From Phycisphaerae bacterium SM23_30 (GTDB lineage Bacteria > Planctomycetota > Phycisphaerae > Sedimentisphaerales > SM23-30), in assembly GCA_001303695.1 (NCBI GenBank), contig LJUC01000002.1, positions 1-42,511 on the forward strand: a stretch of DNA of 42,511 nucleotides. The letters run 5' to 3'. The translations under genes and the position numbers were made by a program. Below, piece by piece: positions 8,591 to 32,672 of the stretch. Position 1 is the first letter of the stretch; each line of letters starts with the position of its first letter. A model generated the notes under the pieces. That model saw nothing but the letters and a program-made list of their open reading frames with translations, made no database searches and had not been told where the DNA came from.

Positions 8591-10834
8591 TTATTTTGAC
8601 CCCGGCCCGGATATGAGAAGTGTTTTTGGCTTAGGACGTTTCCTTTTATCATTATTACCATCACCGCGCCTTCGACCATAACCATAGCCGTAACCGTAGC
8701 GGTAACGATAATGGCTGGAGGAAGGGGAAACATTGCATAAAACATTACCCAGGATTTTCACATTTATCTGGGACAAGAGATCCAGGGTTTCTTTAAGATC
8801 GGAACTTTCAGTTTGGCCGGCCAGGCTGCTCAAAACCACCGCATCGGCCATTCGAGCCCACAACCGAGCGTCGGGAACGGCCAGCACGGGGGGGGTGTCA
8901 ATAATTACATGATCATATCTTTGGCTGATATTATTTATACATTCTGCGGTTTGCGGTTTTTCCAGGAGTTCAACGGCTTCGGCGGGATTTCGTCCATCGG
9001 CGGTCAAGACATCCAACCCGCTCAGGGGCACGGAACGGACGGTTTCTTCAAACTTTTTAAGTCCGTAGAGCACATCCATAAGCCCCCAGGAGTCATGGGG
9101 AAGGTTTAACAGCCGTTCAATATCAGGTTTTCGCAAATCCCCATCAATCAAGAGCACTCGTTTGCCGGCCTGGGCCAGGCTGGTGGCCAGGTTCACGGCA
9201 AAGGTGCTTTTTCCTTCCCGTACACCGGAGCTGGTAACGACCATTTTGTGGGGTATTTTGCCGTTGCTGAGCAATCCCAAATTGGCACGAATCGTTTGAT
9301 AGTCTTCGGCCACCTGTTCCAGCAAGAGCTTTTTCTCCACATGGGTCAGATCGCTGGTGGTACCGATCATAGGTACCCCGATGCACCTTTCAATGTCTTC
9401 GGGGTCATATATAGTTTTATCGATTTTACCCATAAGTAAGGCAAAGGATATGCCCAAGGCTAGGGCGCCTATCGCCAAAGCCGCCAGCAATTTTTCCCGC
9501 TTGGTCACGGGCGGACCGGTACTAGCCTCGTCCGAAATAGTAATACGGGCCGGTCTTTGTCGTTTAATTTCAATATCATCAATTCTTTCAAGGACCAGAT
9601 TATATTCGCTTTGATCCCGGGCCATTTCGGCTTGCCTGGTCCTGATCTCAAACTGTACATTTCCCATATCTTTGTTTTGTTCCAGCTCCTCAACCAAACG
9701 CCGGCTATACTCAGATTCCATTGCTTGGTAATTAGCCAATTGCACTTTAGCCTTGGTCAAATCCGCTTCCCTCTTTTGCTCCATAAAACGGACCATGGCC
9801 TCATCAAATTTTTCCCCGGCCTTGGCGCGATATATTTCCAAATCTTTTTCAAACGTTTCTATAGACTTTGTTATTCTTTCAATTTCAGGATTTTTTAGGG
9901 TTAGTCGTTGTTTATAAGAACTTAGCTCCATTTGTAATTGCACCAAAATAGCGGTTGTTTCGCGAACATAGGGATCATTATTGATGGAATCACTACGATT
10001 TTTTAACATATCCGGGGGTATATCGATAGGATGATTGGGATCGGAGAGTAATTCTATTTGCGTTAAAGTATCAGATATTACCAACTCCAAATTTCTCAAC
10101 TGTTCACGCAGCGAAGTGATATCTCCCAGCGCCACTCTTTGGAGTCCTTCCAAAGAATCGGCGCCATATTTTTCATTAATTTTCCGCAGTTCCTGCAAGT
10201 GGTTTTTCAATTTATTCTCCAACTCCAGTTTTAACTTCCTTAAGTTGGCCAAATCCTGATCCTCCATCCCGAGATCTATATTATCAACCACCTTCATATA
10301 TTCTTTCATAAAGGCGTTTACTATCTGTTCCGCCTGGCGGGGTTTTCGGCTGGTCATGGAAACGCCAAGAAATTCTGTTCTGGTCAAATGCTTGATGGTA
10401 ATTGTTCCGTCTGCAAGGGCGGTTTTCAATGCGGATATCCTATCAATTCCAGTTCCCAGAAGCGTATTATTATCATCAAGCACATCCGCCACATTCTGCA
10501 GCACCCTATTGTCTCTAATTATTTGGGCCTGTGTATTCACGTAGATATCATAATTGGAAATTCCGCCTGATTCATGGGCGCCGGTTAAAAGGTCGGCTAC
10601 CAGCGGTCTTATATGAATCGTTCCGCTAGTAGTATAGATTGGTCTTTTTACATGCCAGATAATCGGGGCGCCCACTGCAGAGACTAATATGAAAATCACG
10701 AGCACCCAATACCAGCGGCGGAGGACCGGCTGAAACAAGTGAAGTATGGAGCTATCTTTGGGGGCGGAATCCGCCTCCAGATAATCTATATTAGGGGTTA
10801 TTTCCTGCGGTTGATATTTTTCCAGTTTATCCAC
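8591..10834 (-). CDS. Wzc-like polysaccharide co-polymerase with tyrosine autokinase domain
   Basis: 747 residues. A Wzz-type chain-length domain is bracketed by transmembrane helices at about 42-60 and 449-468, with a long coiled-coil periplasmic part (about 190-420). A cytoplasmic BY-kinase domain follows: Walker A SGVREGKST at 536-544, Walker A' VLLIDGDLRKP at 560-570 and Walker B HVIIDTPPV at 642-650. The C-terminal tail has six tyrosines alternating with R or G (Y709 to Y719), the usual autophosphorylation cluster. This single-polypeptide architecture controls polymer length and export in Wzx/Wzy-type systems. It starts at GTG and overlaps the exosortase stop by 8 bases, so the two are co-translated. 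Confidence in the family is high; the polymer it serves is inferred from the neighbours. Confidence 0.95.
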   Translation of the reverse strand: MDKLEKYQPQEITPNIDYLEADSAPKDSSILHLFQPVLRRWYWVLVIFILVSAVGAPIIWHVKRPIYTTSGTIHIRPLVADLLTGAHESGGISNYDIYVNTQAQIIRDNRVLQNVADVLDDNNTLLGTGIDRISALKTALADGTITIKHLTRTEFLGVSMTSRKPRQAEQIVNAFMKEYMKVVDNIDLGMEDQDLANLRKLKLELENKLKNHLQELRKINEKYGADSLEGLQRVALGDITSLREQLRNLELVISDTLTQIELLSDPNHPIDIPPDMLKNRSDSINNDPYVRETTAILVQLQMELSSYKQRLTLKNPEIERITKSIETFEKDLEIYRAKAGEKFDEAMVRFMEQKREADLTKAKVQLANYQAMESEYSRRLVEELEQNKDMGNVQFEIRTRQAEMARDQSEYNLVLERIDDIEIKRQRPARITISDEASTGPPVTKREKLLAALAIGALALGISFALLMGKIDKTIYDPEDIERCIGVPMIGTTSDLTHVEKKLLLEQVAEDYQTIRANLGLLSNGKIPHKMVVTSSGVREGKSTFAVNLATSLAQAGKRVLLIDGDLRKPDIERLLNLPHDSWGLMDVLYGLKKFEETVRSVPLSGLDVLTADGRNPAEAVELLEKPQTAECINNISQRYDHVIIDTPPVLAVPDARLWARMADAVVLSSLAGQTESSDLKETLDLLSQINVKILGNVLCNVSPSSSHYRYRYGYGYGYGRRRGDGNNDKRKRPKPKTLLISGPGSK

Positions 10835-11846
10835 GGTTTTCCACTTCCTTTCTCATATGGACGTTAAAATCATAACCTGATGGGCTAATTAATATTCCGT
10901 CTTTTTCCGGCGGCTCTTGTTCTTTGGGGCAAGCAGTCATTTTTTTCAAAACCCAAAGCTCACAAACCACCAGGGCCAAGGCCAGGGGCATCATGGCATA
11001 TCCGCCAAAATCATGAAATAATTTTCCCCAGGTTTCCTCTGCGAGTACGGTGAAGGCCATGGCCGTGACCGCCAGCCGGATGGTATTGCATAACAAGCCG
11101 ACCGGCAGCGCCGACATTAAAAGTATCAGCTTTTCCCACCAGGCGCGCCGGACCAGCAGCGCCACCAAACCGGTTATAACAATGAAGGCGGTCACCATTC
11201 TCAAGCCGTTGCAAGCTTCAGCCACCGCCACCGACGTTGAACCAATGTGAATAATATTGCCTTCCTGGATAACATCGTAGCCTATTATTTCCAGGCAAAA
11301 AACGGCGGACGACGTAGCCCAAGTTTGTAAGGGCAAAGTAATGCGGGTCTCTAACATTCGGGGCAAGGGCAGCATCAAACACAAGAAAAGTAAAATTGTA
11401 GTTACTTTACCGAGAAGCCGCCCCCCAAACAATAAAAGCACCAGGGCCGCGATGCTGAGCACCAAGGACAGGCGTTCGGCCGAGCTGTACATAAGAAACA
11501 ATCCCAGAAATCGAATTCCCTGGGCGGCTAAAAAGAGCAATGCTCCCCACATTGACGGCCGTATTTGACATTGAGCGATTTGCTCGCGCCGCGACCAAGC
11601 AATGTAAACGGCTAACACCGGTACCAACAGACCGCTGGAATACTCGTCGCTGCGCATCCAAATTTTCAAGAGGTTGGTTATCGTGGGCCCGTACGACCAG
11701 AGAAAACCGCAAAAAACCAGGGGTAAACCGATCATCACGAACCATCTTTGCCGGTTTGGTCTCGGTTCATGTTTAACGGGGTGTTTCTGATTATTTCGGC
11801 GTTTTTGTTTTTTGAACAATCGTGCATTTTTCAATTTTTCAGGCAT
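10827..11846 (-). CDS. Exosortase (PEP-CTERM transpeptidase/protease)
   Basis: 339 residues with about eight membrane segments between 35 and 302. The catalytic triad expected for exosortases is present: Cys212 in ACNGLR, Arg257 in CNTIRL and His278 in FHDFGG. The family's periplasmic motif appears as DEYSSGLLVP (about 67-76), with SSG where SHG is more usual. The N-terminal 30 residues are basic and the C-terminal 35 residues are a soluble tail; no EpsI domain is fused. It should cleave the PAPGA-type tails of the proteins at 487-2138 at the cytoplasmic membrane. ATG has AAGGA about 10 nt upstream. I do not assign an Xrt subclass. Confidence 0.93.
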   Translation of the reverse strand: MPEKLKNARLFKKQKRRNNQKHPVKHEPRPNRQRWFVMIGLPLVFCGFLWSYGPTITNLLKIWMRSDEYSSGLLVPVLAVYIAWSRREQIAQCQIRPSMWGALLFLAAQGIRFLGLFLMYSSAERLSLVLSIAALVLLLFGGRLLGKVTTILLFLCLMLPLPRMLETRITLPLQTWATSSAVFCLEIIGYDVIQEGNIIHIGSTSVAVAEACNGLRMVTAFIVITGLVALLVRRAWWEKLILLMSALPVGLLCNTIRLAVTAMAFTVLAEETWGKLFHDFGGYAMMPLALALVVCELWVLKKMTACPKEQEPPEKDGILISPSGYDFNVHMRKEVENRG

Positions 11847-11930: not shown

Positions 11931-12932
11931 TTAAGAAGTTTCAAGGCCAAGTTTTCTTTTCGCCGAATCAATCTGCTCTTGGGGCAGATCTGTATTAAGC
12001 CTTCGTAAGCCTTCTTCTCTTGTCATACATCCTAAACGAACGAGCTCCGCTATTTCATAGGCATAGGGATTGAATCCAAACCGTTCTATATGAACCTGGT
12101 TGGCGAAGGAATTCAAGAGACAATTGGTCGAGTTGGCATCGGTATCATCCGGCTTTTCCCACCCATACTGTCGAGCGATTTTTAATATCTTCTCTTCTTT
12201 GTATTCCGTGAATACCAGAGGATTTACGCTATAGGGGAACTTTTCCGTCTTGCGGAAATGTCTTTCTTCCAGGAAAAACGATTTGGCGCAATCACCGAGC
12301 CTATTCCATAAAGGTAGAAATACACTTTCCTGCATAGTCCTGATTAAGCGGGCATTCGTTTTGACCAAACCGGTAGCCAAAGAGGCTTGACCGGGCGACA
12401 TACCGAACGCCACCAGAGGTATTTCAAGATCAACCGCAAGACGAAATCCGACAAACCTTATCAAGGTGATACAAATCGAGCAAATGCTGGAAGCTCTGGT
12501 CAGGGCCTTGTTCATATGAACGCCCGTATCAACGGCATCCAAAAATATTTTTTTCATCACTTCAAAATTCGGCGTTATAGTCCAATGATCGACTTTAAAA
12601 TTATTTAAAGCATTTCGAATATTCCGTCGCGCCCCATCCGACTGAAATCCGTTATCAAAAGAAAACGTCAAAAGGTTTAGATCATATTTGTCCTTTAATA
12701 GATGAAGGGTGTAAGTGCTGTCTTTGCCCCCGCTATAAGCAACCAGACAATCGTAACACCCTTTTGCTTTATATTGCGATATCAACTGCATAAATTTTTC
12801 TTGATATTTATTCCAACCCATCCGAGGCTGCTTTTTCTTTTTCGCAGAACTGCAATAGTTACAAATTCCGTCCCGGTTAAACTTGATTCCCGGAAAACGT
12901 TCATTTAGCACGCAATGGCTGCATATCTTCAT
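11931..12932 (-). CDS. PP-loop ATPase, N-acetyl-sugar amidotransferase-like
   Basis: 333 residues. Two N-terminal CxxC pairs (C4/C7 and C24/C27) form a probable zinc site, followed by the PP-loop SGGKDS at 67-72. The layout matches the WbpG/PseA family, which uses ATP to adenylate a sugar carbonyl or carboxylate and add ammonia. In that family ammonia comes from a HisH-like glutaminase, and none is present in this window. The asparagine-synthase-like gene nearby has its own glutaminase domain but is a complete enzyme. The gene sits between an aminotransferase gene and the exosortase gene. ATG has AAGGA 7 nt upstream. The family is confident, the substrate unknown. Confidence 0.85.
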   Translation of the reverse strand: MKICSHCVLNERFPGIKFNRDGICNYCSSAKKKKQPRMGWNKYQEKFMQLISQYKAKGCYDCLVAYSGGKDSTYTLHLLKDKYDLNLLTFSFDNGFQSDGARRNIRNALNNFKVDHWTITPNFEVMKKIFLDAVDTGVHMNKALTRASSICSICITLIRFVGFRLAVDLEIPLVAFGMSPGQASLATGLVKTNARLIRTMQESVFLPLWNRLGDCAKSFFLEERHFRKTEKFPYSVNPLVFTEYKEEKILKIARQYGWEKPDDTDANSTNCLLNSFANQVHIERFGFNPYAYEIAELVRLGCMTREEGLRRLNTDLPQEQIDSAKRKLGLETS

Positions 12933-12978
12933 GATATTTTCCTTGGTTGTCGGCTTAACTTACGTAATAAAATCCGGA

Positions 12979-14154
12979 TTAATCCTCGGGTAAACGCCTG
13001 AGATTACTTACCTTTTCACAAGCTGTTGCCAAGGCATTTATAAACTTTTCAACTTGTTCAAGGGATATAACTAAAGGAGGCTCCACCATCAAGGCAGAGG
13101 GGTTGGCAAAAGCCGTTAAAATCAAAATTCCTTGTTGAATCATATGGCGCACCAATTCAAGAGCTATTTTATTATCTTTTGCATTGATACCTATCAGAAG
13201 ACCTAAGCCATCAACCGATTTTAGAAGATTGGAATATTTTTCAACTAACTCTTTAAGTCGAGGCATGATGATTGTGCCCATTTTTTGACAATGGTTTAAC
13301 AAATCATCCTTTTGAATATAATGGATCGTTGCCCAAGCCGCCCGGCAGGCCAGCCCATTTCCAGCGAAACTCGACGCCGACATCGTGAAGCTTAAGCCGA
13401 ATCTTTTCCAGAAAGAGCTTTTAGCAATTATAGCACCCAGAGGGACTAAACCGCCTCCAAGAGACTTACCCACCACTAAAATATCGGGAAAAACCTCAAA
13501 ATGCTCACAGGCGAACATTTTTCCGGTCTTGCCGAAACCGGTCTTAATTTCGTCAAAAATTAGTATGAGATCATGCTCGTTACAAATACGCCGCACCTGG
13601 TGAAAATAATCATCCGGGGGCAAGACCACGCCTGCTTCATGTTGGATTGGTTCCAGCATGACCGCCGCTGTCTCAGCATCCACAGCCCGCTCAAGGGCGG
13701 CGGCGTCGCCAAAAGGAACGTGTACAAATCCCGGCACCCAAGGTTTGAAACTTCGCTTAAAGGAGGCAATACCTGTGGCGGACAGGGCCCCGAAAGTATG
13801 CCCGTGAAATGAATTTTGGGCAGTTATGATTTTTTTAGGACCCCTGTGAAGCCGTACCAGTTTAAGGACATTGTCGATAGCTTCAGAACCGCTATTGTAC
13901 ATAACAGAACATTTTAGATCACCGGGAGCGATGGCGGCGAGCGCTTCGGCAGCCCTAATCTGAATTTCAGTGATCAAAGGTTTGGTGAAAAGTTGACATT
14001 CACTCAGTTGATCCTTCAAGGCCTGGATAATCCCCAAGTGATTATGGCCTAAATTAAATATACCGTATCCCCCGGTGCAGTCGATATAGGTTTTACCGTC
14101 TGAGTCAGTTATCGTGGCACCCTCGGCCCTGACAGCGGTTTTATCCAATCCCAA
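12979..14154 (-). CDS. Class III pyridoxal-phosphate aminotransferase
   Basis: 391 residues from a TTG codon. The family signatures are NSGSEA at 87-92, D201 in IFDEIKTG for the cofactor ring and the Schiff-base lysine K230 in VVGKSLGGG. The fold class covers acetylornithine, GABA and similar omega-aminotransferases. The ligase, ACP and amidotransferase genes beside it suggest that it makes an amino group on an acyl or sugar intermediate, but the substrate cannot be read from sequence. The TTG start is doubtful: the frame stays open upstream with family-like sequence, yet contains no ATG (next feature). The true N-terminus is probably about 45 residues longer. Confidence 0.85.
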   Translation of the reverse strand: MGLDKTAVRAEGATITDSDGKTYIDCTGGYGIFNLGHNHLGIIQALKDQLSECQLFTKPLITEIQIRAAEALAAIAPGDLKCSVMYNSGSEAIDNVLKLVRLHRGPKKIITAQNSFHGHTFGALSATGIASFKRSFKPWVPGFVHVPFGDAAALERAVDAETAAVMLEPIQHEAGVVLPPDDYFHQVRRICNEHDLILIFDEIKTGFGKTGKMFACEHFEVFPDILVVGKSLGGGLVPLGAIIAKSSFWKRFGLSFTMSASSFAGNGLACRAAWATIHYIQKDDLLNHCQKMGTIIMPRLKELVEKYSNLLKSVDGLGLLIGINAKDNKIALELVRHMIQQGILILTAFANPSALMVEPPLVISLEQVEKFINALATACEKVSNLRRLPED

Positions 14155-14291
14155 TTTACGTAAAAAAGAAGGATAGGACGGATTAACAAAACGTTCATAA
14201 GCTTCAAATAGAGCTAAATCATTATTTGCAGCTACAACGCCCGGGTTTTGGGCATCAATGATATTTTTTTGTGTCTTGGTAACTTTATCAT
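14155..14291 (-). other. 5' coding extension of the aminotransferase, apparently frameshifted
   Basis: Read on the minus strand in the aminotransferase frame, this stretch is open from a TGA at 14298-14296. It encodes NIIDAQNPGVVAANNDLALF and then a segment ending in FLRK, which looks like the usual N-terminus of class III aminotransferases. The frame has no ATG, GTG or TTG before 14154. An ATG at 14291-14289 lies one frame off and would join correctly if the A7 run (plus-strand T7 at 14264-14270) held eight bases. Options are a real frameshift, a consensus error in the homopolymer, transcript slippage, or a rare ATT/ATC start near 14262-14257. Confidence 0.55.
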
Positions 14292-14340
14292 CCTTTCAAA
14301 TATTTAAATCATCAGTTGAAAATATGATTTCTCAATTCAA

Positions 14341-15933
14341 TTATGCTTTTAATTGTTTTTTATCTATCTTGCCATGAGCCGTTTTGGGCAGGTTTTCCAC
14401 AAATTCGATGTATTTGGGCACCATAAAGGTTTCCATATGTTTCGTGCAGTATTTCATTACGTCATTTTCAGTCAATGGGAAATCAGGGGTTGATACAATA
14501 TAAGCTTTAATTGCCTGGCCAAAAATCTCATCCGGCACTCCCACCACGGCGGCTTCGGCCACTCCTTCCATATGGCAAAGGGTATTCTCCACTTCCTTGG
14601 CACTTATCCGCTCCCCCTTGCTTTTAATCATGTCGTCTTTGCGGCCCACGAAATAAAGAAACCCCTGCTCATCCCGGTGGAAATAATCCCCGGAATACAA
14701 AACTCTGCTGCTGGGGTAATCGCCGTTTTTATAGGTCCGGTCGGTCAGTTCCGGGTCGCGCCAGTATCCCTGCATGACGTTTGAGCCTTTAATAATAAGC
14801 TCCCCAATTTCACCGGGCGCTACTTCATTACCCTCGGTATCGACGATGAATACCTCGCAATTGGGCATAGCGCGGCCTACGGAGGAGGGTTTTTCGTCTA
14901 AATAATCGGGAGGCATGTAACTAACACGTTTGCATTCGGTCAGTCCGAACATAGAAATTATCCTGACATGGGGAAACAGTTCTCTCAGTCGGCGAATATG
15001 CTCCACCGGCAAGGCGGCGCCGGTATTGGTCATATAACGCAAACTGCTAAAGTCGTATTTTTGTAAATCTTTCATCTTCAACAACATGGCTACAATAGTA
15101 GGAACAACGGGAAAACCCGTTACTTTTTCTAGAGCGATGCGTTCTAAAACGTGATGCAAATAAAGAAACGACTTTTCCAACACCACGGTGCCGCCAAACA
15201 TAAAGGCCATAATCACCTGGTAGAGGCCGTAATCAAACGACAAGGGTAAAACATCAAGAATAATATCACCTTCTGAATTTTCGACATATTGAATGATACT
15301 GCGGGCCGCCGAGATCATATTATGATGGGTGGACATTACTCCCTTGGGTTCGCCGGTGGAACCGGAAGTATAAATCAAGGCCGCCAAGTCCACATCGATG
15401 CTGCGTGGCAATTTACCATCGACAATCGCTTCCGATTCATAATCAACTGCGCTATCAGTGCCCCGGGGAAAAACATCTTCCCAACTTAGATATACCTGGG
15501 ATGGTATTTCCGGGATCTTTTTTTTTGGCCCCACCCAAATTACTTTGCAATTTCTTTTACCATCAGCCAAAGCATCTTTGATAACGGGAGTTTTGCTTAC
15601 GTGGGTAATGATTACACGAGCACCGGAGTTATCCAGAATATAACCTAATTTACTACCTTTGACTGATCCTGCCAGAATCGCAAATACCCCCGCCGCCTTA
15701 AGTATGGCATACATGGCAATCACCGTTTCCACACAGTTATCCAATAATATCACTACCCTATCGCCGCGTTTTACACCTATTCTGATTAAAGTAAGCGCTA
15801 AGTGATTCGTATGGCATTCAAGGGTCTTATACGTCCAGCGCTCTCGGCCACAGATCAGGGCGGTTTTTTCCGGGTAGCGATTAGCAGATCGGGTAAGCCA
15901 ATTGTGAACTAATATAGGATCAAATTCGATCAC
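14341..15933 (-). CDS. AMP-forming acyl-CoA/acyl-ACP ligase
   Basis: 530 residues with the full ANL superfamily layout. The phosphate-binding loop YTSGSTGEPKG is at 188-198. The adenine-binding region contains SMFGLTE, the hinge motif is YSGDYFHRDEQGFLYFVGRK, and the catalytic C-terminal lysine is K522 in AHGKIDKKQ. Such enzymes adenylate a carboxylic acid and pass it to CoA or to a carrier-protein thiol. An acyl carrier protein gene in the same run makes loading of that carrier likely. Related ligases occur in exosortase-A loci of proteobacteria, together with an ACP and an asparagine-synthase-like gene. Start is GTG with a weak ribosome-binding site. The acyl substrate is unknown. Confidence 0.92.
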   Translation of the reverse strand: MIEFDPILVHNWLTRSANRYPEKTALICGRERWTYKTLECHTNHLALTLIRIGVKRGDRVVILLDNCVETVIAMYAILKAAGVFAILAGSVKGSKLGYILDNSGARVIITHVSKTPVIKDALADGKRNCKVIWVGPKKKIPEIPSQVYLSWEDVFPRGTDSAVDYESEAIVDGKLPRSIDVDLAALIYTSGSTGEPKGVMSTHHNMISAARSIIQYVENSEGDIILDVLPLSFDYGLYQVIMAFMFGGTVVLEKSFLYLHHVLERIALEKVTGFPVVPTIVAMLLKMKDLQKYDFSSLRYMTNTGAALPVEHIRRLRELFPHVRIISMFGLTECKRVSYMPPDYLDEKPSSVGRAMPNCEVFIVDTEGNEVAPGEIGELIIKGSNVMQGYWRDPELTDRTYKNGDYPSSRVLYSGDYFHRDEQGFLYFVGRKDDMIKSKGERISAKEVENTLCHMEGVAEAAVVGVPDEIFGQAIKAYIVSTPDFPLTENDVMKYCTKHMETFMVPKYIEFVENLPKTAHGKIDKKQLKA

Positions 15934-15961
15934 TTTTTTTTTCTGTGATTCTTAATTTCTT

Positions 15962-17974
15962 TTAGTTTTTTCGTTTTAACTTAATTAACGTACTCGACCG
16001 GGTTTTTCGCCGATCTACGACAAGATCAAGGGAAATCGCACGAGGGAACTGATGGGGAAAGTTTGCCACAAACTGCTGATAAACAAGTTGAGAGGACAAA
16101 ATACCCACCAAGGCCATATCATCGATTTCCCGAGATTGGTCAACTTTTAGCATCTTTCTGATCAACAAATTAACCTTATCGGCCTTAAACAATCCCGCTT
16201 TTTTTAACATACTTTCCGACAGCATTTCTTTAGTATAGGCGCAAGCATTTTCATTTAAGAGGCTATGTTTAATCGGCGCTCGATAAGGGTGCTTGGCCCG
16301 GCGGATGATTTCTTCAGGTAAAAGCGGGGTAAAGGATTTTTTCAAAATATGCTTTTCATTCAATCCCAGGATTTTCCACCGGGAAGGAACTCGCCCCATG
16401 AATTCCATCAGGTTAGGATCTAAAAAGGGCAGTCTAATTTCAACAGAATTTCCCATCGCCATCCTGTCGCCCTGTGACGAAAGCAGATAATTACTTAAAA
16501 AAAGGACTATTTCCAAATACTGTGCTTGACTCAAACCGTCCCACTGATCGTATGCCGCGGGCAGACTCTGGCGGAGCTGCTCATATCCATTATATGCGCC
16601 GATTTGGGTTTGAAGTTCTTGGGAAAAGAACTTTTTGATATTACTGGTGTTTTCCCATCTGATCAGGTGAGAAAAGAAAGGGTCGTCAATCTGATTTAGT
16701 CCCCGGGAAAAGAACGAATGCAGGGAGCGCTGCAATCTGGGATTTTTAAATATATAGGGGTAAAGTGTGTCAATCAAGGCCGACCGGCGGTCGGAATGGG
16801 GTTGTTTGGCCCAGAAACGTCTCACCTTCGCTTCCCGGAATATATTATAACCACCAAACACCTCATCCGCCCCTTCACCCGTGAGTACGACTTTCAGGGA
16901 GTTTTCCCGTACCAGTCGCGACAACAAAAACAACGGCACCGGGGCGGTTCTCAACAGGGGTTTTTCCGTATGCCAGACTACTTCCGGAAAGACGCTTCCG
17001 ATTTTTTTATTATGGGCGTGAACTTCCCGGTGATTCACTTTCAGGAAAGATACCATCCGATTTTGATGGTCGCCTTCATCAAAAGCCTCTTCTTCAAAGC
17101 GAATGCCGAAAGTGCAGGCCTCGCTATTGAAATTGTTAACAATCAGCGAGGTCACTCCCGAGGAATCCAACCCGCCGCTGAGATAACTTCCCACCGTCAC
17201 ATCGGCCCGCAGGCGAATTCGCACCGCCTCGAGCAATAACTGCCGGATTTGTTCGCTCAACTCATAGGGTGATAAATCCCAATGTTCATATCGCGGATAA
17301 AGAGGAAAGTCCCAGTATCTCTTTACGATAATCTGTCCTTTGGATAATTTAAGATAATGTCCCGGCGGCAGCTCATGGATATTTTTGAAGATTGTGTATC
17401 CAGGCAGGGTGGTCCAAAAAGTAAATATTTGATCCATGGCGATCGGATCAATTTCTCGCGGCACAGACTCGACCATAAAAATCGATTTGATCTCGGAAGA
17501 AAATATCAAGGCATTATTCTGGATTGTATAATGCAAAGGCCGAATACCCACGCGGTCCCGCGCCAGAAACAGTTCCTGCTTTTTTGCATCCCATATAGCC
17601 ATAGCAAACTGACCGTTTAACCGCTCTAGACAGTCAGGACCTTCCTCTTGGTAAAGCTGAAGCACTACTTCGGTGTCAGAGGTAGTATAGAAACTGTACC
17701 CCTTCTCAACTAATTCCTGTTTTAATTCCACATAGTTGTAAACCTCGCCATTATAAATGATCCAGAGGGTTTCATCTTCATTATGAATAGGCTGACAACC
17801 GGAAGAAAGGTCGATAATGCTCAATCGGGCGTGTCCCAGCCCCACTTGGTGATCCAGATAGATACCGGCTTCATCCGGCCCGCGATGATGCAGGGCAGCT
17901 GTCATCCGACGTAACACTTCCAAAGAAATCTCGCCGGAGTTATTTAAAAGACAAATACCGGCAATTCCACACAT
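15962..17974 (-). CDS. Glutamine-hydrolysing asparagine-synthase-like amidotransferase
   Basis: 670 residues. The class II glutaminase domain begins with Cys2 (MCGIAG), the nucleophile after removal of Met, and includes RGPDEAG and YNGEVYNY. The synthetase domain has the PP-loop SGGLDSS at 266-272 and GEGADEVFGGYN further on. Both halves look intact. In exosortase-associated loci a member of this family replaces AsnB and is thought to make an amide on a polysaccharide or small molecule rather than asparagine. It starts 3 nt after the DUF362 stop (TAA CTT ATG), so the two are tightly coupled. A genuine asparagine synthetase cannot be excluded, but location argues against it. Confidence 0.9.
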   Translation of the reverse strand: MCGIAGICLLNNSGEISLEVLRRMTAALHHRGPDEAGIYLDHQVGLGHARLSIIDLSSGCQPIHNEDETLWIIYNGEVYNYVELKQELVEKGYSFYTTSDTEVVLQLYQEEGPDCLERLNGQFAMAIWDAKKQELFLARDRVGIRPLHYTIQNNALIFSSEIKSIFMVESVPREIDPIAMDQIFTFWTTLPGYTIFKNIHELPPGHYLKLSKGQIIVKRYWDFPLYPRYEHWDLSPYELSEQIRQLLLEAVRIRLRADVTVGSYLSGGLDSSGVTSLIVNNFNSEACTFGIRFEEEAFDEGDHQNRMVSFLKVNHREVHAHNKKIGSVFPEVVWHTEKPLLRTAPVPLFLLSRLVRENSLKVVLTGEGADEVFGGYNIFREAKVRRFWAKQPHSDRRSALIDTLYPYIFKNPRLQRSLHSFFSRGLNQIDDPFFSHLIRWENTSNIKKFFSQELQTQIGAYNGYEQLRQSLPAAYDQWDGLSQAQYLEIVLFLSNYLLSSQGDRMAMGNSVEIRLPFLDPNLMEFMGRVPSRWKILGLNEKHILKKSFTPLLPEEIIRRAKHPYRAPIKHSLLNENACAYTKEMLSESMLKKAGLFKADKVNLLIRKMLKVDQSREIDDMALVGILSSQLVYQQFVANFPHQFPRAISLDLVVDRRKTRSSTLIKLKRKN

Positions 17975-17977
17975 AAG

Positions 17978-19243
17978 TTAATGCAACATTCTTAAATAGG
18001 CGTATTTTAAAATATTTTTCCCAGAGGTCCCCCATATTTTTTTGGCTTTTAGGGGTCCTTCGGGACCTTTATGCCAAGCGCCATCGCGGTAACAATATGA
18101 TTCGACAGTTATAATTTTTTCATCTAAGATTCCACCTGATATTTCAGCGCACTTTACCAAATCATAATAAACAGGGCTTGTCATATCATCAGGATTATGG
18201 ATAGAAAGTTTCGAATTGGGATAGAGTAAATATTTGAAAGCATGATAATCCAAAGCGACCGGATCCTCACTTACCAGAACGGCGCGTGTTTGAACCACCG
18301 GAGGTTCCGTTCGGGAACTGAGGCCCACCCATTCGGCGGAGGTAATATTTAAATCGGGCTTTCGAATACTACTCATAAAAACTCCCACGGCTTTCCCCAT
18401 GGCTCCGGGGGCAGGACCTTTTTGCCATTTATTAAAGGCGAAAGCATGAAAATTAAAATAGTCTCCTGTTAAAATCCCGTCATCACGCGGATCGGGTCCT
18501 CCGCTTAAATCAACCACGCCAAAAAGGTTTTTTACCGAACTGGTTGCCCCACAGTAAGTGCTGTGATGATTTAAGGCGGCAAAATTCACCCATTTTAAAG
18601 GTTGTCCGGTAAAGGAATCTCTTTCCCACACTCCGTTTTTAAAATCAACCATAGTTTCCTGGTCGGTCTTAAAAATCGGATACGTCATTATCGTCGAACG
18701 TAGCTGCTCCCCTTCGACATCGTTGTCACAAGATATCAAGGTTGTTCCCATCGAACCATCACAATAAACATAGCCATTTCCCTCGGCCGGATTGGAGACC
18801 CTGCGGCTTCCATAACAAACATCGAGCCAATGACAGACGGTAAACTGCGGACCATATTTTTCTTTCAAGCGTCGGGAAAGATCATTCATATTGTCAACCT
18901 GAGCCACATCGGAATTACGTACGAAACGGCGCGACCAGGCGGCATTCTCCGACAACCAGGGTTCTGCCCCACGATGACAGTTATCCGCCAATACCACCTC
19001 ACCTTTAAATCCGCCCGTTCGATTCATAATAAAATCCACAAGGGCCGCCAGCGCCGCCAAATTTGCAGCGCCCTGATTCCACCACTGGGTATTTGGCTTA
19101 ACGATAACCACATCCTCAAGACCAATATATTGTTGTATACCACCCATCCTATCGATTAATTTTTGTAAATTTGCACCAGGAGGACCGCCGTATGCCCGAT
19201 ATATAGTGCCCGGCGCCCGGAGAGGATGGTTTAAATTATACAT
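17978..19243 (-). CDS. DUF362-family protein
   Basis: 421 residues. Features I associate with DUF362 are VVIVKPNTQW at 45-54, SSVKNLFGVVDLSGG at 235-249 and SEDPVALDYHAFKYLL at 325-340. There is no signal peptide, transmembrane helix or ferredoxin-type Cys cluster, unlike some DUF362 proteins. Histidines and aspartates cluster in LADNCHRG (about 85-92) and NHHSTYCG (about 225-232), which could form a metal or phosphate site. The family's biochemical role is not established. Its place between the ACP and the AsnB-like gene, 3 nt from the latter, suggests that it acts in the same small-molecule pathway. ATG start with only a weak GAG ribosome-binding site. Confidence 0.75.
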   Translation of the reverse strand: MYNLNHPLRAPGTIYRAYGGPPGANLQKLIDRMGGIQQYIGLEDVVIVKPNTQWWNQGAANLAALAALVDFIMNRTGGFKGEVVLADNCHRGAEPWLSENAAWSRRFVRNSDVAQVDNMNDLSRRLKEKYGPQFTVCHWLDVCYGSRRVSNPAEGNGYVYCDGSMGTTLISCDNDVEGEQLRSTIMTYPIFKTDQETMVDFKNGVWERDSFTGQPLKWVNFAALNHHSTYCGATSSVKNLFGVVDLSGGPDPRDDGILTGDYFNFHAFAFNKWQKGPAPGAMGKAVGVFMSSIRKPDLNITSAEWVGLSSRTEPPVVQTRAVLVSEDPVALDYHAFKYLLYPNSKLSIHNPDDMTSPVYYDLVKCAEISGGILDEKIITVESYCYRDGAWHKGPEGPLKAKKIWGTSGKNILKYAYLRMLH

Positions 19244-19361
19244 TACAACTCATATAATGGAAAAAATTAATTCGACTATGAAAATTAAACACAATTCTAT
19301 CTTAAAATTTTTCGTTATACATTGGGATGGGAATAAATAAATGTTACTTATCTTTTTAGGC

Positions 19362-19610
19362 CTACACGTCAGACAGTTTCTTTTCCAAATAACGGACAAT
19401 ACTATTCAAACGGTCCATGTTTTCCGGTATTAATTCATCATCCTCAACGGTTATATCATAGGTTTCTTCCAGAAAAGCAACCAACTCCAGGATACCCGTT
19501 GAATCTACAATCCCGTCTTCTAAAAACGAAGTATCCTCAGTCAGCTGTGCATCATCTCCAAAGAGGAAATTCTCGATGATGAATGACCGCACTGCTTCAA
19601 GGTAAGCCAT
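19362..19610 (-). CDS. Acyl carrier protein
   Basis: 82 residues, acidic and helical, the usual size of a free carrier protein. The phosphopantetheine site is Ser37 in GIVDSTGILELV; the motif is DST rather than the DSL of fatty-acid ACPs, which is common in specialised carriers. ATG has a strong AAGGAG nine nt upstream. The acyl ligase 3.4 kb downstream in the same gene run is the probable loading enzyme, and the aminotransferase or amidotransferases may act on the tethered acid. No ketosynthase or condensation enzyme is visible, so chain extension on this carrier is not supported here. Confidence 0.92.
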   Translation of the reverse strand: MAYLEAVRSFIIENFLFGDDAQLTEDTSFLEDGIVDSTGILELVAFLEETYDITVEDDELIPENMDRLNSIVRYLEKKLSDV

Positions 19611-19657: not shown

Positions 19658-20173
19658 CTATGTTTTTGGGGTTGGATTTTGCGATTTTTTTCTAAGGGGG
19701 CGAAGCCCACTAACAAATTCTTCATACGAATGCTCAGCGGTAAGAGGTACGGTAATCCGGGCCAAAGGTCCAGCCTGGGGCGGTCCCCAAAAAGTCTCCG
19801 GCGGTACATCCCGCGTCACTACGGTTCCGGCCTTGATTACGGCGCCTCTGCCGATCCGCACTTTGGGAAGTATCACGCAATGGGGACCGATAAAAACATT
19901 TTCCTCAATAGACACCGGGCCGGCGAACTCTCTCGATCTTTGAGAACCCCAATAAAAATGGGTAAAGATCGAGGTCCGCAGTCCGATACTGGAGTTATCC
20001 CCAATGGTCACCGCCTCCGGATGCAATTCATCGATATAAACCCAACGGCTGATCCAGACATTTTTACCCATATGAACGCCGCGTAATTTATGAAGCCAGG
20101 TTCTAATATGAAAACCCCCAGGCGCCGTAAAAGCCAATCTATGTAAAAATCTTTGAAAAACACCTCTTAGCAT
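19658..20173 (-). CDS. Left-handed beta-helix (hexapeptide) acyltransferase
   Basis: 171 residues. Hexapeptide repeats run from about 55 to 125 (VTIGDNSSIG, VSIEENVFIG, VRIGRGAVIKAGTVVT), and the WcaF/CysE-like end VTRDVPPETFWG leads into a short helical tail. His72 in IFTHFYW is in the place of the catalytic histidine of these enzymes. Members acetylate sugars of exopolysaccharides using acetyl-CoA. It lies 47 nt upstream of the ACP gene, so an acyl-ACP donor is also conceivable. The C-terminus is basic and proline-rich. The acceptor sugar is unknown. Confidence 0.88.
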   Translation of the reverse strand: MLRGVFQRFLHRLAFTAPGGFHIRTWLHKLRGVHMGKNVWISRWVYIDELHPEAVTIGDNSSIGLRTSIFTHFYWGSQRSREFAGPVSIEENVFIGPHCVILPKVRIGRGAVIKAGTVVTRDVPPETFWGPPQAGPLARITVPLTAEHSYEEFVSGLRPLRKKSQNPTPKT

Positions 20174-26989: not shown

Positions 26990-27019
26990 AACTACTCCAC
27001 ACATAAGTAAATCATAAAT

Positions 27020-28075
27020 CTATCCTATATGTTTATACAGAAGGGTTCCGGCCATTTTTAACAAAGGAATCGGCATCTTTTTAAAAAGAAAAATATTTGA
27101 TATCTCACGTTCCGGCCCTTCAACAAACTTTTCTTGAGAAAAAATGTAACGATAATATCTGATGATACTTTCCTCCACGCCCCATCCTTTCTTAAAACGC
27201 CTTAAACCTTCGTTGCTCGTCTCTGTCCTGCCGAAAGAGAAATTTTTGAATCCTTCCTTACAAAACCGCTTTATAGCCCACCAGGTTATCAGATCGTTCG
27301 GCCTTAAGTCTTGAAATTTCTTATCCAACGCATTGTATTTATAAATTACCTTGTCGTCGAATTGGAAAAACATGCCTCCAGCAATGGGGATATTTTTATA
27401 ATAAGCCAGCAATACTAATCCCAATTTCTGGGAAATAATATTATCGAATATACTCTTAAAGAAGCTAAAAGGCTGGGGCGGCAGACCATGCCTTTTCCTG
27501 GTTACACAATTCAGGCGATAATACTCTTTGAGGGACGATAATGAGCTACCCTCTTCGACCTGCACTTCTTTTCTTTGGGCTTTGTTAATATTTTGTTTGA
27601 CGGTTCTTTTTAAACCCGAAAAGATGGTTGCCGAATCCTGCAGAAGACTTAACCGGTGGCCATAAAAACTTTTATAAACAGGCCAATCTTCTGGCAATCC
27701 CCCCCCAATCCTCAATTCAAAATACTTCCAACCAGCTTTTCGTCCAAAATTAACTAAGCTCTCAACTGCGTTCTCCACACAATGTTGTTCGGATATAATC
27801 GGCTCACAATAATCCGAGAAAGGTAAAGAAACGCCCCGACGACCGGTCAGAATACTATCAACTTCCATCATCGGTATCAGGCATTGCATTTGACCGTCAA
27901 CTAACGTAGTAAAGTAAAGTGGTTTGTATTTGTAAGTATCAGCAAGTACTTTAGACCAAATCGAACTGTGAAAAAAAGAAGCAACGGAATTAGTTTCGAG
28001 TAGCTTATCCCAGCCTGGATAATTTATGGGATTCAGTGGTTCGAAGTTTACATTCTCCAGCTCAGAGAGTGTCAT
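27020..28075 (-). CDS. FemAB/GNAT-like peptidyl or aminoacyl transferase
   Basis: 351 residues. The second half has the Fem/GNAT features: SLKEYYRLNCVTRKRHGLPP, LVLLAYYKNIPIAGGMFFQF, YKYNALDKKFQDLRPNDLI and the ending FSFGRTETSNEGLRRFKKGWG. FemAB-type proteins transfer an amino acid from aminoacyl-tRNA, and a related subfamily is regularly found with PEP-CTERM/exosortase loci. Here it may add an amino acid or acyl group to an amino sugar made by the neighbouring aminotransferases. ATG start; the gene follows the WbpE-type gene by about 50 bases. Donor and acceptor cannot be read from the sequence. Confidence 0.83.
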   Translation of the reverse strand: MTLSELENVNFEPLNPINYPGWDKLLETNSVASFFHSSIWSKVLADTYKYKPLYFTTLVDGQMQCLIPMMEVDSILTGRRGVSLPFSDYCEPIISEQHCVENAVESLVNFGRKAGWKYFELRIGGGLPEDWPVYKSFYGHRLSLLQDSATIFSGLKRTVKQNINKAQRKEVQVEEGSSLSSLKEYYRLNCVTRKRHGLPPQPFSFFKSIFDNIISQKLGLVLLAYYKNIPIAGGMFFQFDDKVIYKYNALDKKFQDLRPNDLITWWAIKRFCKEGFKNFSFGRTETSNEGLRRFKKGWGVEESIIRYYRYIFSQEKFVEGPEREISNIFLFKKMPIPLLKMAGTLLYKHIG

Positions 28076-28125: not shown

Positions 28126-29235
28126 TCATTTTTCAGCTATCAAGTTTCCCAGTTCTTCGCCGACATATTCGATCTGCTCTCGGCTTAATTCGGCAAACAT
28201 CGGCAAAGATATAATCTCATCGGCGCACTTCTCTGTTACCGGAAAACTTCCTTTGCCTAAACCCATAAAGCTGTAAGCCTCCTGAAGATGTAAGGGCACC
28301 GGATAATGAATTCCACAATAAATATCCTTTTGGGCCAATGATTTGATAATTTGGTCACGGTTATTCGTACGCACAGCGTAAATATGATACACATGTTTGG
28401 CATATTCGGCCTCGAGGGGCAAAACAAGTCTATCAATATCAGCAAGGACCATGTTATATATCTGGGCGTTTTTTCGACGCCCTTCGTTCCATTTCGGCAG
28501 ATACTTAAGCTTAACACTTAAAATTGCCCCCTGGAATCCGTCCATCCGGCTGTTCCAGCCGATCCGAGAATGATAATATTTCTTCAATTGGCCGTGATCT
28601 CGCAAAGATCGTATCTTTTCTGCCAGTTCGCCATTATTAGTCACGATGGCCCCCGCCTCTCCATAAGCCCCCAGATTCTTACCCGGATAAAAACTATAAC
28701 AACCCGCATCACCGATCGACCCGACGATCTGGCCTTTGTATTCCGCTCCATGCGCCTGACTGGCATCCTCAATCACCAATAACTTGTGGGCCCTGGCAAT
28801 CTCCATAATGGGATCCATATCCGCCGCCTGGCCGTACAAATGGACCGGAATTATCGCCTTGGTTTTTTTAGTAATCGCCGCTTCTAATAACGCTGGATCC
28901 ATATTAAAGGTCTGATCATCCACATCGACAAATACCGGTCGGGCTCCACAGTAACTGATTGCTTCTGCCGTAGCTATAAACGTATTGGCAGCCGTAATCA
29001 CTTCGTCTCCCGGATCTATCTCCAGGCCCAAAAGCGCCAACCAAAGAGCTGCCGTACCGCTGGAAACACCGACAGCATATTCACACTGACAAAAAGCCGC
29101 AAATTCCTTTTCAAATTGAGCGACAAAAGGGCCTCCAGCAAATGCGGTCTTATCCAATACTTCCTGCAGGGCTTGGGCTATCTCTTCTTTAATTGATTCG
29201 TACTGAATTTTGAGATCGAGAAAAGGTACTTTCAT
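28126..29235 (-). CDS. wbpE: DegT-family aminotransferase, WbpE/WlbC type
   Basis: 369 residues from the ATG with GAGG nine nt upstream; a TTG at 29250 would overlap the upstream gene and is less likely. Family features are FAGGPFVAQFE near 32-42, VSSGTAALWLAL, the IEDASQAHGA aspartate and K186 in SFYPGKNLGAYGEAGA. The best match by motif is the aminotransferase that converts UDP-2-acetamido-3-oxo-glucuronate to the 3-amino sugar. The two other enzymes of that route, the WbpD-like acetyltransferase directly upstream and the WbpB-like dehydrogenase at 31644, support this. The protein should be cytoplasmic, PLP-dependent and use glutamate. A related sugar substrate is possible. Confidence 0.85.
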   Translation of the reverse strand: MKVPFLDLKIQYESIKEEIAQALQEVLDKTAFAGGPFVAQFEKEFAAFCQCEYAVGVSSGTAALWLALLGLEIDPGDEVITAANTFIATAEAISYCGARPVFVDVDDQTFNMDPALLEAAITKKTKAIIPVHLYGQAADMDPIMEIARAHKLLVIEDASQAHGAEYKGQIVGSIGDAGCYSFYPGKNLGAYGEAGAIVTNNGELAEKIRSLRDHGQLKKYYHSRIGWNSRMDGFQGAILSVKLKYLPKWNEGRRKNAQIYNMVLADIDRLVLPLEAEYAKHVYHIYAVRTNNRDQIIKSLAQKDIYCGIHYPVPLHLQEAYSFMGLGKGSFPVTEKCADEIISLPMFAELSREQIEYVGEELGNLIAEK

Positions 29236-29236
29236 A

Positions 29237-29734
29237 TTATTTTTCCTCAACTACCTTCCTTAAAACCTTGGCGGGATTGCCCGCCACAATAGTATTCGGG
29301 GCAATATCTTTGGTCACCACACTGCCTGCTCCCACAATCGCATTTTCGCCCACGGTTACTCCACAAAGAAGTGACACGCTGGAACCGATGGAGGCTCCTT
29401 TTTTCACCAGCGTCGGCACACACTCCCAATTATCTTCGGCTTGTAGTTCGCTATTCGCCGCCGTGGCTCGCTTGTACTTGTCGTTAATAAACGTCACATT
29501 ATGTCCGACAAACATGTTATCTTCAATAGTCACGCCTTCACATATAAAAGTATGACTGGAAATTTTACAATTCCTGCCGATTTTAGCCCCTTTTTGTATC
29601 TCCACAAAGGTTCCTATCTTGGTATTATCACCCACCCGACAGCCATACATATTCACAAAATTAAAAATCTTCACTCCTTCGCCTAACTGTACATCAGGTG
29701 TAATTTTTAACGTCGGATTATCTTTTTCATCCAT
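29237..29734 (-). CDS. wbpD: UDP-amino-sugar N-acetyltransferase, WbpD/WlbB type
   Basis: 165 residues made of hexapeptide repeats (VKIFNFVNMYGC, TKIGTFVEIQKGAKIG, VTIEDNMFVGHNVTF). The segment FINDKYKRAT is the family signature normally seen as FINDKYPR, and the end VAGNPAKVLRK is typical of left-handed beta-helix acetyltransferases. WbpD uses acetyl-CoA to acetylate the 3-amino group of the diamino-uronic sugar. The stop lies immediately before the ribosome-binding site and ATG of the aminotransferase gene, so the two are an operon pair. Start ATG with GAGGA upstream. Confidence 0.88.
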   Translation of the reverse strand: MDEKDNPTLKITPDVQLGEGVKIFNFVNMYGCRVGDNTKIGTFVEIQKGAKIGRNCKISSHTFICEGVTIEDNMFVGHNVTFINDKYKRATAANSELQAEDNWECVPTLVKKGASIGSSVSLLCGVTVGENAIVGAGSVVTKDIAPNTIVAGNPAKVLRKVVEEK

Positions 29735-29846: not shown

Positions 29847-30554
29847 TCAGGCTGACTTTTCCAGCAATTCTCTTACTGTAGCCAGGTGTAACTCACGACG
29901 TTTAATTTCTTCAAGTATCGACTGCAACGCTGTCACCGTTACCGATCCTTGCGAACCATTACCCGTCCTACCGTCATGAAGCAGAATAACACTACCAGGG
30001 GCTAATCGATCAATCACAAATTGAGCCACTTTTTGACCTGATTGCTGTTGATAATCTTTAGGATCTATATTCCAAAAAACCACCTGCCGCCGTTGGTCCC
30101 AAAGAGAAATCAGCAGGAGAAAATTAAGTTTGCCGTAGGGGGGTCGATATAAAATCGGCTTTTTAGTCACTCCCAACTTATCTATGATGCGTCTAGCTTT
30201 TACAACCTCCGCTGACGAATTTAAGGGACTACTCTTCCAGGGGTGTAGATGCCGGTAGCCGTGCTCGCCGATTTCGTGGCCCATCTCAACAATTCTCCGG
30301 GCCAGTTGCGGATGTTGCTCGACTTTTTCCCCAACTACAAAAAAGGTCGCTTTGGCGCCATACTCACTCAACAATTCCAATATTTGAGGCGTGATTTTAT
30401 CATCCGGACCGTCATCAAACGTTAAACATATTCTTTCACTGCTTGCCATAACCGCCAGAAATCTCCAACGTAAATAAAACTTAACTACTACACCCAACCC
30501 AAAATAAAGAAACACCACAATAATAACTATAATAAGTAAAGCTATTTGCCACAT
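29847..30554 (-). CDS. Membrane-anchored NodB-type polysaccharide deacetylase
   Basis: 235 residues. A single N-terminal helix (about 4-26) anchors the enzyme. The NodB motifs are all present: TFDDGP at 45-50 (Asp47/Asp48), EHGYRHLHP at 97-105 with His98 and His102 as metal ligands, RPPYGK and the C-terminal LLHDGR. The enzyme should remove N- or O-acetyl groups from a polysaccharide or lipid-linked sugar, probably on the outer face of the cytoplasmic membrane. The WbpD/E/B genes around it make acetamido sugars, which are plausible substrates. It is distinct from the deacetylase-like half of the fusion protein at 20267. Confidence 0.92.
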   Translation of the reverse strand: MWQIALLIIVIIVVFLYFGLGVVVKFYLRWRFLAVMASSERICLTFDDGPDDKITPQILELLSEYGAKATFFVVGEKVEQHPQLARRIVEMGHEIGEHGYRHLHPWKSSPLNSSAEVVKARRIIDKLGVTKKPILYRPPYGKLNFLLLISLWDQRRQVVFWNIDPKDYQQQSGQKVAQFVIDRLAPGSVILLHDGRTGNGSQGSVTVTALQSILEEIKRRELHLATVRELLEKSA

Positions 30555-31643: not shown

Positions 31644-32672
31644 TTATGACAGAATGTCAATCGACACTTTGATCCCGTTGTTCCGCAGCGATTGAGAAGA
31701 CGCTTCCAGTATCTGCACCACTAAAAGACCTTCTCGGCCGGAAGAATCCGGTTTGGCTCCGGTTCGAATGCAATCCAAAAAATGTTGACATTCCACCTTC
31801 AAAGGCTCCACCTGCTTAATATACGGTGCATAAGTATCCCCATAATGATAAGAACACTGAAACTCGGCAAAAGTATCATAATGCGGTGGCGTCTCCACCC
31901 GCTTATCATAAATTCTAATCTTTTCCAAAGGCTCCATATCGTTATAAACAATCATTTTCTTGGTGCCCACGATTGTCATTTCTCTGATCTTATTGGGATC
32001 AAGCCAACTGCTTTGAATAGTGGCGAAATTGCCGTTGGAAAAATCTAATGACATATTAGTCACATCTTCTATGCCCTCTGCCACATGCGCTTTACCTTGG
32101 CAACTTACCGATATGGGAGGATGCTTCGAAAGATAAAGAATTATTGAAATATCATGCGGCGCCAGATCCCAAGCCACGTTAATATCATTTTGAAACAAAC
32201 CCAGATTCAAACGCCGAGAACTGATATAACAAATCTCACCAATCTCACCCGAATCTATAATTTCTTTGATCTTTCTAACAACGGAAGTATATATAAAAGT
32301 ATGCCCTACCATCAGGGTTAATTTCTGCTTCTGAGATAATTTCACCATTTCTTTGCATTCGGCTACAGACGAGGCCATCGGCTTCTCTACAAAAGTATGC
32401 TTACCAGCCTTCATACTTTTCATAGCCAATTTATAATGCAGACTGACCGGCGTGACAATAGCCACCGCATCAATAGCTGTATCATTGAAAATATCATCTT
32501 CCTGGTTGGTAGTTACGATTTCAGGATACAGCTTCTTCATATGTCTGAGCCGATCCTGATCCACATCACATACCGTCTTAACCTGACACTCTGTAAGACT
32601 ACGGAAGTTGCGAATAAGATTGGGCCCCCAATATCCGCACCCGATCAATCCAATATTTAATTCTCCCAACAC
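31644..32672 (-). CDS. wbpB: Gfo/Idh/MocA-family dehydrogenase, WbpB/WlbA type
   Basis: 342 residues. The NAD-binding Rossmann motif is GLIGCGYWGPNLIRNF (8-23), the catalytic EKP is at 96-98 and the H173 in WDLAPHDISI is the usual active-site histidine. WbpB-type members oxidise C3 of UDP-GlcNAc-uronate. Together with the WbpE- and WbpD-like genes this completes three consecutive steps towards a 2,3-diacetamido-uronic sugar. The preceding UDP-GlcNAc 6-dehydrogenase (WbpA) and the later epimerase (WbpI) are not in the window. Start GTG with AAGGAG about 7 nt upstream. Other sugar oxidoreductases share the fold, so the assignment depends on context. Confidence 0.85.
   Translation of the reverse strand: MLGELNIGLIGCGYWGPNLIRNFRSLTECQVKTVCDVDQDRLRHMKKLYPEIVTTNQEDDIFNDTAIDAVAIVTPVSLHYKLAMKSMKAGKHTFVEKPMASSVAECKEMVKLSQKQKLTLMVGHTFIYTSVVRKIKEIIDSGEIGEICYISSRRLNLGLFQNDINVAWDLAPHDISIILYLSKHPPISVSCQGKAHVAEGIEDVTNMSLDFSNGNFATIQSSWLDPNKIREMTIVGTKKMIVYNDMEPLEKIRIYDKRVETPPHYDTFAEFQCSYHYGDTYAPYIKQVEPLKVECQHFLDCIRTGAKPDSSGREGLLVVQILEASSQSLRNNGIKVSIDILS

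Follow-up and report, generated by a model that had tools for sequence, protein, structure and literature searches.

An acyl carrier protein, AsnB-like amidotransferase and ligase cassette with a rare DUF362 protein beside an exosortase gene in Phycisphaerae bacterium SM23_30

Cargo proteins of the type IX secretion system (T9SS) of Porphyromonas gingivalis carry a 2-N-seryl, 3-N-acetylglucuronamide on the C-terminus, a linking sugar that is made by WbpA, WbpB, WbpD, WbpE, VimE, VimA and the AsnB-type enzyme WbpS, with the amide made by WbpS and the amino acid transferred by VimA (PMC7468200). Related genes were noted beside exosortases by the same authors, who speculated on an amino-acid-modified sugar there and in 2020 described the exosortase attachment compound for PEP-CTERM proteins as unidentified (PMC7468200). 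In butirosin biosynthesis, the pyridoxal phosphate (PLP) enzyme BtrK remodels a carrier-bound amino acid, iso-glutamyl-acyl carrier protein (ACP) (PMC7756342). Here, a cassette of six genes beside an exosortase gene of Phycisphaerae bacterium SM23_30 was analyzed, encoding an ACP, a DUF362 protein, an AsnB-like amidotransferase, an AMP-forming ligase, a class III aminotransferase (AT3) and a WbuX-like PP-loop amidotransferase. The whole stretch of 42,511 nt (contig LJUC01000002.1) is referred to as the window, and is contig C282 of a draft assembly (G000; 4.0 Mb, 295 contigs, 78.5% complete). The gene set is real and conserved and forms one functional set, a variant of an operon of related genomes that combines carrier-bound acyl activation and amide formation in a compact form, here alongside linking-sugar-type genes and an exosortase.

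Gene identities were checked by translation and profile search of the window proteins (Table 1). The hexapeptide gene, the six cassette genes, the exosortase gene and the Wzc-like gene are open frames on the same strand, transcribed in the order of the first nine rows. Open frames and profile matches confirmed all six genes that a preliminary description of this DNA had placed beside the exosortase, and its spacing of 3 nt between the DUF362 and AsnB-like genes was correct; further gaps measure 28 nt (AsnB-like/ligase), 118 nt (ACP/DUF362) and 46 nt (aminotransferase/WbuX-like). The window showed no gene for a PLP decarboxylase, nor, as described previously, for a ketosynthase or a thioesterase.

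Table 1. Cassette, adjoining genes and sugar-pathway genes of the window, each group in order of transcription.
Feature	Coordinates	Strand	Evidence
Hexapeptide (LbH) acyltransferase	19658..20173	-	PF00132; directly upstream of ACP
Stand-alone ACP	19362..19610	-	NF052616 55.9 bits, under cut-off 130
DUF362 protein, rare subfamily	17978..19243	-	PF04015 32.9 bits, over gathering cut-off 24
AsnB-like glutamine-dependent amidotransferase (WbpS-like), core gene	15962..17974	-	TIGR01536 507 bits, above cut-off
AMP-forming acyl/aminoacyl ligase, core gene	14341..15933	-	TIGR03098 469.5 bits, under cut-off 592.35
Class III PLP aminotransferase (AT3)	12979..14154	-	PF00202 312 bits
PP-loop N-acetyl-sugar amidotransferase-like (WbuX/WbpG type)	11931..12932	-	TIGR03573 181.7 bits, full length, cut-off 203.2
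Exosortase adjoining cassette	10827..11846	-	PF09721 196 bits; TIGR02602 above cut-off
Wzc-like	8591..10834	-	next after exosortase in transcription order
Gfo/Idh oxidoreductase, WbpB/WlbA-like	31644..32672	-	NF040723 UDP-GlcNAc 3-dehydrogenase 186.7 bits, under cut-off; 46% identical to L007:13032-14060
CE4 polysaccharide deacetylase, VimE-like	29847..30554	-	deacetylase models
Hexapeptide N-acetyltransferase, WbpD/WlbB-like	29237..29734	-	69% identical to L007:6811-7329
DegT aminotransferase, WbpE/WlbC-like	28126..29250	-	68% identical to L007:4382-5500
FemAB/GNAT-type transferase, VimA-like	27020..28075	-	PF02388, PF13480; TIGR03019 pepcterm_femAB 134.7 bits, under cut-off 260

AsnB orthologues were searched for with an AsnB pair alignment in 248 genomes of the class (E<=1e-150) and were found in 14. 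Among the loci fetched from other genomes (L numbers), L030, L032, L033, L034 and L035 carry ACP-AsnB-ligase-NadE-like genes, and L038 and L040 carry the same four with the ACP and AsnB positions swapped. The core extends as far as the ligase in L036, where the contig ends; ACP, AsnB and ligase are present in L037 and L041, and AsnB and ligase in L031 and L039. ACP, AsnB and ligase are thereby found together in ten of the fetched relative loci. No DUF362 or AT3 orthologues were found in the fetched stretches of L030-L041. In the window, ACP, AsnB-like and ligase genes lie close together on one strand, with DUF362 between ACP and AsnB. The window is a variant of this core because the NadE-like gene, a paralogue of the NF002048/PRK00876 type, is absent, AT3 and the WbuX-like gene occupy its position, and DUF362 is inserted. 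In G000 as assembled, NadE-type matches comprise the long canonical NadE and, weakly and over part of its length, one further protein outside the window; the NadE-like copy of a Latescibacterota locus (L008) scores over the NF002048 cut-off. In a tree of AsnB proteins the window sequence groups with relatives of its order, with modest inner support and a long L008 branch. The arrangement is more than chance, because several genomes have the ACP-AsnB-ligase core as an operon and because two genomes besides that of the window, one of them in another phylum, have DUF362, ACP and ligase together. The earlier view of the genes as one set is borne out by both recurrences; the core operon and the sugar pathway are additions to it.

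DUF362 orthologues were found in one further genome of 59 relatives (G058, a Sedimentisphaerales metagenome-assembled genome of the same order as the window genome; loci L007/L009), in no other among 392 phylum genomes sampled, and in 1 of 64 genomes of the Latescibacterota group (L008); the counts are lower bounds because the contig scan used narrow patterns. The window protein is 50-51% identical to the orthologues in L008 and L009. The order in G058 is hexapeptide-ACP-NadE-like-DUF362-ligase, adjoining WlbA/B/C-like and WecB-like genes. In L008, DUF362 and AT3 are followed by the ligase on the opposite strand and then by ACP, AsnB and a NadE-like gene, with identities to the window of 52% (AsnB), 43% (ligase), 42% (AT3; L008:11555-12781) and 59% (ACP). 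Upstream are genes for an MT-ACP protein, a KS-AT-ACP polyketide synthase (PKS) and a C-A-T nonribosomal peptide synthetase (NRPS), with the domain make-up read from sequence; they directly precede DUF362 (L008:2146-9774), and no thioesterase is visible among them. DUF362 and ACP co-occur in 3 of the 3 DUF362 orthologue loci found, so that a pairing which might have proved peculiar to this contig does occur elsewhere.

Conserved in the DUF362 subfamily are a histidine and the KN.FG segment that another DUF362 protein of G000 also has. No export signal was seen in the predicted frame of the window protein; its Latescibacterota orthologue (L008:9881-11230) has an RR-containing, hydrophobic N-terminal stretch resembling one. 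An AlphaFold model was uninformative (mean predicted local distance difference test score 38), and PDB searches with the protein as well as searches of viral contigs and plasmids gave nothing useful. A literature search for DUF362 in connection with ACP, and for exosortases in connection with ACP or AsnB, yielded nothing relevant, and the kinship of LarA with DUF362 is a shared Pfam clan only (PMC11770544). The cassette supplies a functional context for this DUF362 subfamily.

Exosortases were found in 241 of the 248 class genomes and in 13 of the 14 AsnB carriers; being near-universal in the class, their presence is uninformative. No exosortase was found in the AsnB-core carrier G058 (94% complete), and 228 of the 241 exosortase genomes were without the AsnB core at the same threshold. 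The expectation that the gene set always accompanies an exosortase was rejected on the frequency of exosortases in the class and on G058, and the Latescibacterota copy stands beside PKS/NRPS genes. The position of an exosortase near the core, unlike its mere presence, carries information. The order in G667 (L032) is hexapeptide-ACP-AsnB-ligase-NadE-exosortase-Wzc-WcaJ-TPR-LuxR-PEP-CTERM, and the window, with hexapeptide-ACP-DUF362-AsnB-ligase-AT3-WbuX-exosortase-Wzc-TPR-LuxR-PEP-CTERM, has its cassette in the same slot. The G667 core sits directly between glycan genes and the exosortase-Wzc-WcaJ-TPR-LuxR-PEP-CTERM block, and the window exosortase is adjoined by the WbuX-like gene where G667 has the NadE-like gene. 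With G557 and G545 included, 3 of the 13 other carriers have an exosortase no more than about 10 kb from the core; a rough chance estimate for this was about 4e-4 (assuming 1.1% per genome, with an approximate mean of 2.5 exosortases per genome; many contigs are short). In L034 and L035, DUF3485/EpsI genes lie close to the core, and a putative protein of this kind adjoins the L036 copy. Separately, the G667 exosortase (L032:4345-6279, 644 aa) is fused behind a nucleotidyltransferase/hexapeptide-type domain.

Likeness to the XrtA families (TIGR03098, TIGR03108 and the PLP decarboxylase TIGR03099) lies in the ligase, which best matches TIGR03098, in the AsnB-like protein, which strongly matches TIGR03108 (445.5 bits, under the cut-off of 816.9), and in the ACP and exosortase beside them. 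The window differs in having DUF362, AT3 and WbuX-like genes and in that ligase, amidotransferase and exosortase (147.2 bits against TIGR03109, cut-off 208) all score under the XrtA cut-offs. No TIGR03099 decarboxylase over cut-off was found in the 78.5% complete G000 or in seven carrier genomes. The preliminary description rightly questioned whether this is the classical cassette, and had DUF362 and AT3 taking the places of other cassette members; as substitutes for the XrtA decarboxylase they were rejected, because those three proteins score under the XrtA cut-offs. They are instead rare additions to the ACP-AsnB-ligase-NadE operon, and the missing gene is the NadE-like one.

By family, the WbpB, WbpE, WbpD, VimE, VimA and WbpS types are all in the window, with the specific NCBIfam models under cut-off. 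The set thus resembles the Wbp/Vim pathway, with WbpB/D/E-like enzymes, a CE4 deacetylase, a FemAB-type transferase and an AsnB-type enzyme in a locus that serves to attach sorted proteins to the surface. An exosortase stands in place of T9SS, WbpA is not in the window, memberships are under curated cut-offs, and ligase, ACP, class III aminotransferase, DUF362 and WbuX-like genes are added. Because the specific XrtA-associated models score under cut-off, this is read as a likeness of gene content and not as proven membership. The resemblance to butirosin (BtrI/J/K) is one of logic only, namely the charging of a separate carrier protein with an amino acid, PLP remodeling and transfer to an aminosugar, and the window PLP enzyme is an aminotransferase, not a decarboxylase. 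The PP-loop protein resembles the WbpG/WbuX acetamidino-sugar amidotransferases in that its TIGR03573 match spans the full length, though the score is just under cut-off. The 78.5% complete G000 assembly yielded a single HisH, and hence no second HisH or dedicated HisH2 that could act as a WbpG-type ammonia partner (HisF was not searched for).

The ACP has no Pfam match, and NCBIfam ACP models matched it with scores under their cut-offs; its D36-S37 site is kept in three orthologues, and it is 47% identical to the L007 ACP. The adjacent hexapeptide protein, a candidate ACP-dependent sugar acyltransferase, is 61% identical to L007:3837-4370, which directly adjoins an ACP; in G667 the ACP is preceded by a different hexapeptide gene. 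Cys2 and the PP-loop SGGLDSS are present in the AsnB-like protein. In most ligase orthologues, the FDYGLYQ motif places an Asp at the D235-equivalent adenylation-domain position, the counterpart of the amino-group-binding Asp of NRPS adenylation domains; this hints at an amino-acid substrate. A second ligase type with Gly for this Asp was observed at L033:13655-15292, L034:790-2412 and L032:8131-9705, and adjoins the Asp type in L033 and L034. AT3 retains a GKSLGGG segment of the kind typical of the PLP lysine, and had no orthologue at E<=1e-100 in the 247 other class genomes. Homology to the L008 aminotransferase extends in frame upstream of the annotated TTG towards about 14265, and an A7 run separates the extended frame from an out-of-frame ATG at 14291. 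The open reading frame is probably 5'-truncated, with the true N-terminus upstream; the A7 interruption could stem from an indel introduced in sequencing or from a true lesion.

The reading we favor, at a rough probability of 45%, is that the cassette, as a variant of the ACP-AsnB-ligase-NadE-like operon, produces an acyl or aminoacyl group on a carrier, for the decoration of an amino-sugar in an exosortase-associated exopolysaccharide. It builds on the observed gene set, operon-like order, conserved core, exosortase slot shared with G667 and recurrence of DUF362, ACP and ligase, from which we infer the enzymology. Judging by its family and the FDYGLYQ motif, the ligase would activate a small acid as its adenylate and transfer it to the ACP; an amino acid is the probable substrate. 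Either ahead of this loading or once it is complete, AT3, and perhaps the putative DUF362 enzyme, could alter the acid. Transfer of the group to a free sugar amine may then fall to the neighbouring hexapeptide acyltransferase or to the FemAB/VimA-like protein, with a Wbp-type 2,3-diamino sugar, provided by the WbpB/E/D-like enzymes and CE4 deacetylase of the same locus, as the predicted acceptor. AsnB would amidate a carboxylate, giving, e.g., a uronamide in the manner of WbpS, and a further nitrogen transfer might be the task of the WbuX-like enzyme, in place of the NadE-like enzyme of relatives. Of the earlier suggestion of an amidated acyl group on a glycan or sorted protein, acyl and amide chemistry on a surface glycan stands as the best-supported theme; dependence on the exosortase is not supported.

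Several points weigh against decoration of an exopolysaccharide. Only three DUF362 orthologues were found. The Asp of the ligase motif is replaced by Gly in three paralogous ligases and the L007 ligase differs, leaving the motif only suggestive. The VimA-like and WbpS-like assignments are under NCBIfam cut-offs. UDP-GlcNAc 6-dehydrogenase (WbpA) is not in the window; NDP-sugar dehydrogenases, identified to that level, are present elsewhere in G000 at C20 and C188. The fetched stretches of L030, L031 and L033 contain no polysaccharide cluster and L008 adjoins PKS/NRPS genes, so that a sugar is not necessarily the destination of the acyl product.

These last loci fit a product of another kind, either a free small molecule or a building block for a secondary metabolite, attached to a carrier, for which the exosortase side is one of several landing sites: in L008, the DUF362, AT3, ligase, ACP, AsnB and NadE genes follow the PKS and NRPS genes, and the core operons of L030, L031 and L033 are isolated, without a glycan cluster in their vicinity. 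We consider this unlikely, given that no PKS/NRPS occurs in the window, L007 or L032, that a hexapeptide acyltransferase gene adjoins the ACP gene in all three, and that many copies are adjoined by exosortase, EpsI or glycan genes. About as improbable is a set of separate modules in one exopolysaccharide locus, in which one sugar is the target of the WbuX-like protein and AT3, a uronamide is the product of AsnB, and a different residue is acylated by ligase, ACP and hexapeptide protein. A grouping of this kind is known from the Legionella Sg6 O-antigen locus (class III aminotransferase, lipopolysaccharide biosynthesis protein and HisH2/HisF; PMC3694923), and neither L008 nor the part of the G058 locus that was fetched has a WbuX-like gene; against it, ACP, AsnB and ligase stay together in the ten relative loci, AT3 orthologues were found only with DUF362 (window and L008), and, with a single HisH in G000, no ammonia partner dedicated to a WbpG-type reaction was found. 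Less probable again, by analogy with the T9SS linking sugar, is a product that itself serves as the exosortase nucleophile, in the form of an aminoacyl-sugar whose amine joins cleaved PEP-CTERM proteins: the near-complete Wbp/Vim-like set beside exosortase and PEP-CTERM genes and the linkage of the core above the rough chance estimate speak for it, but the exosortase genomes without the core and G058 with the core and no exosortase found mean that the cassette cannot be a general sorting requirement.

The most specific form of the idea, to which we give the least credence, is an exosortase attachment compound in which an ACP-loaded aminoacyl group would be placed on a Wbp-type amidated diamino-sugar, its free amine taking the cleaved PEP-CTERM protein and DUF362 and AT3 forming a new route to the amine-bearing acyl group. 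For such a compound the locus names concrete genes and a product class.

Other genes of the window were noted in passing. A GT4 glycosyltransferase (20267-22525) has about 350 extra N-terminal residues that are divergent and polysaccharide deacetylase-like; the extension is not recognised by Pfam, and is a possible gene fusion. Two homologous small Cys-containing proteins (24866-25366 and 26648-27004) have no Pfam or NCBIfam match and follow the pattern CGxxYxVxK...FFDE...CDRxC...W...WLEK. A relative of these proteins (L039:10739-11371) directly adjoins the AsnB gene in G545.

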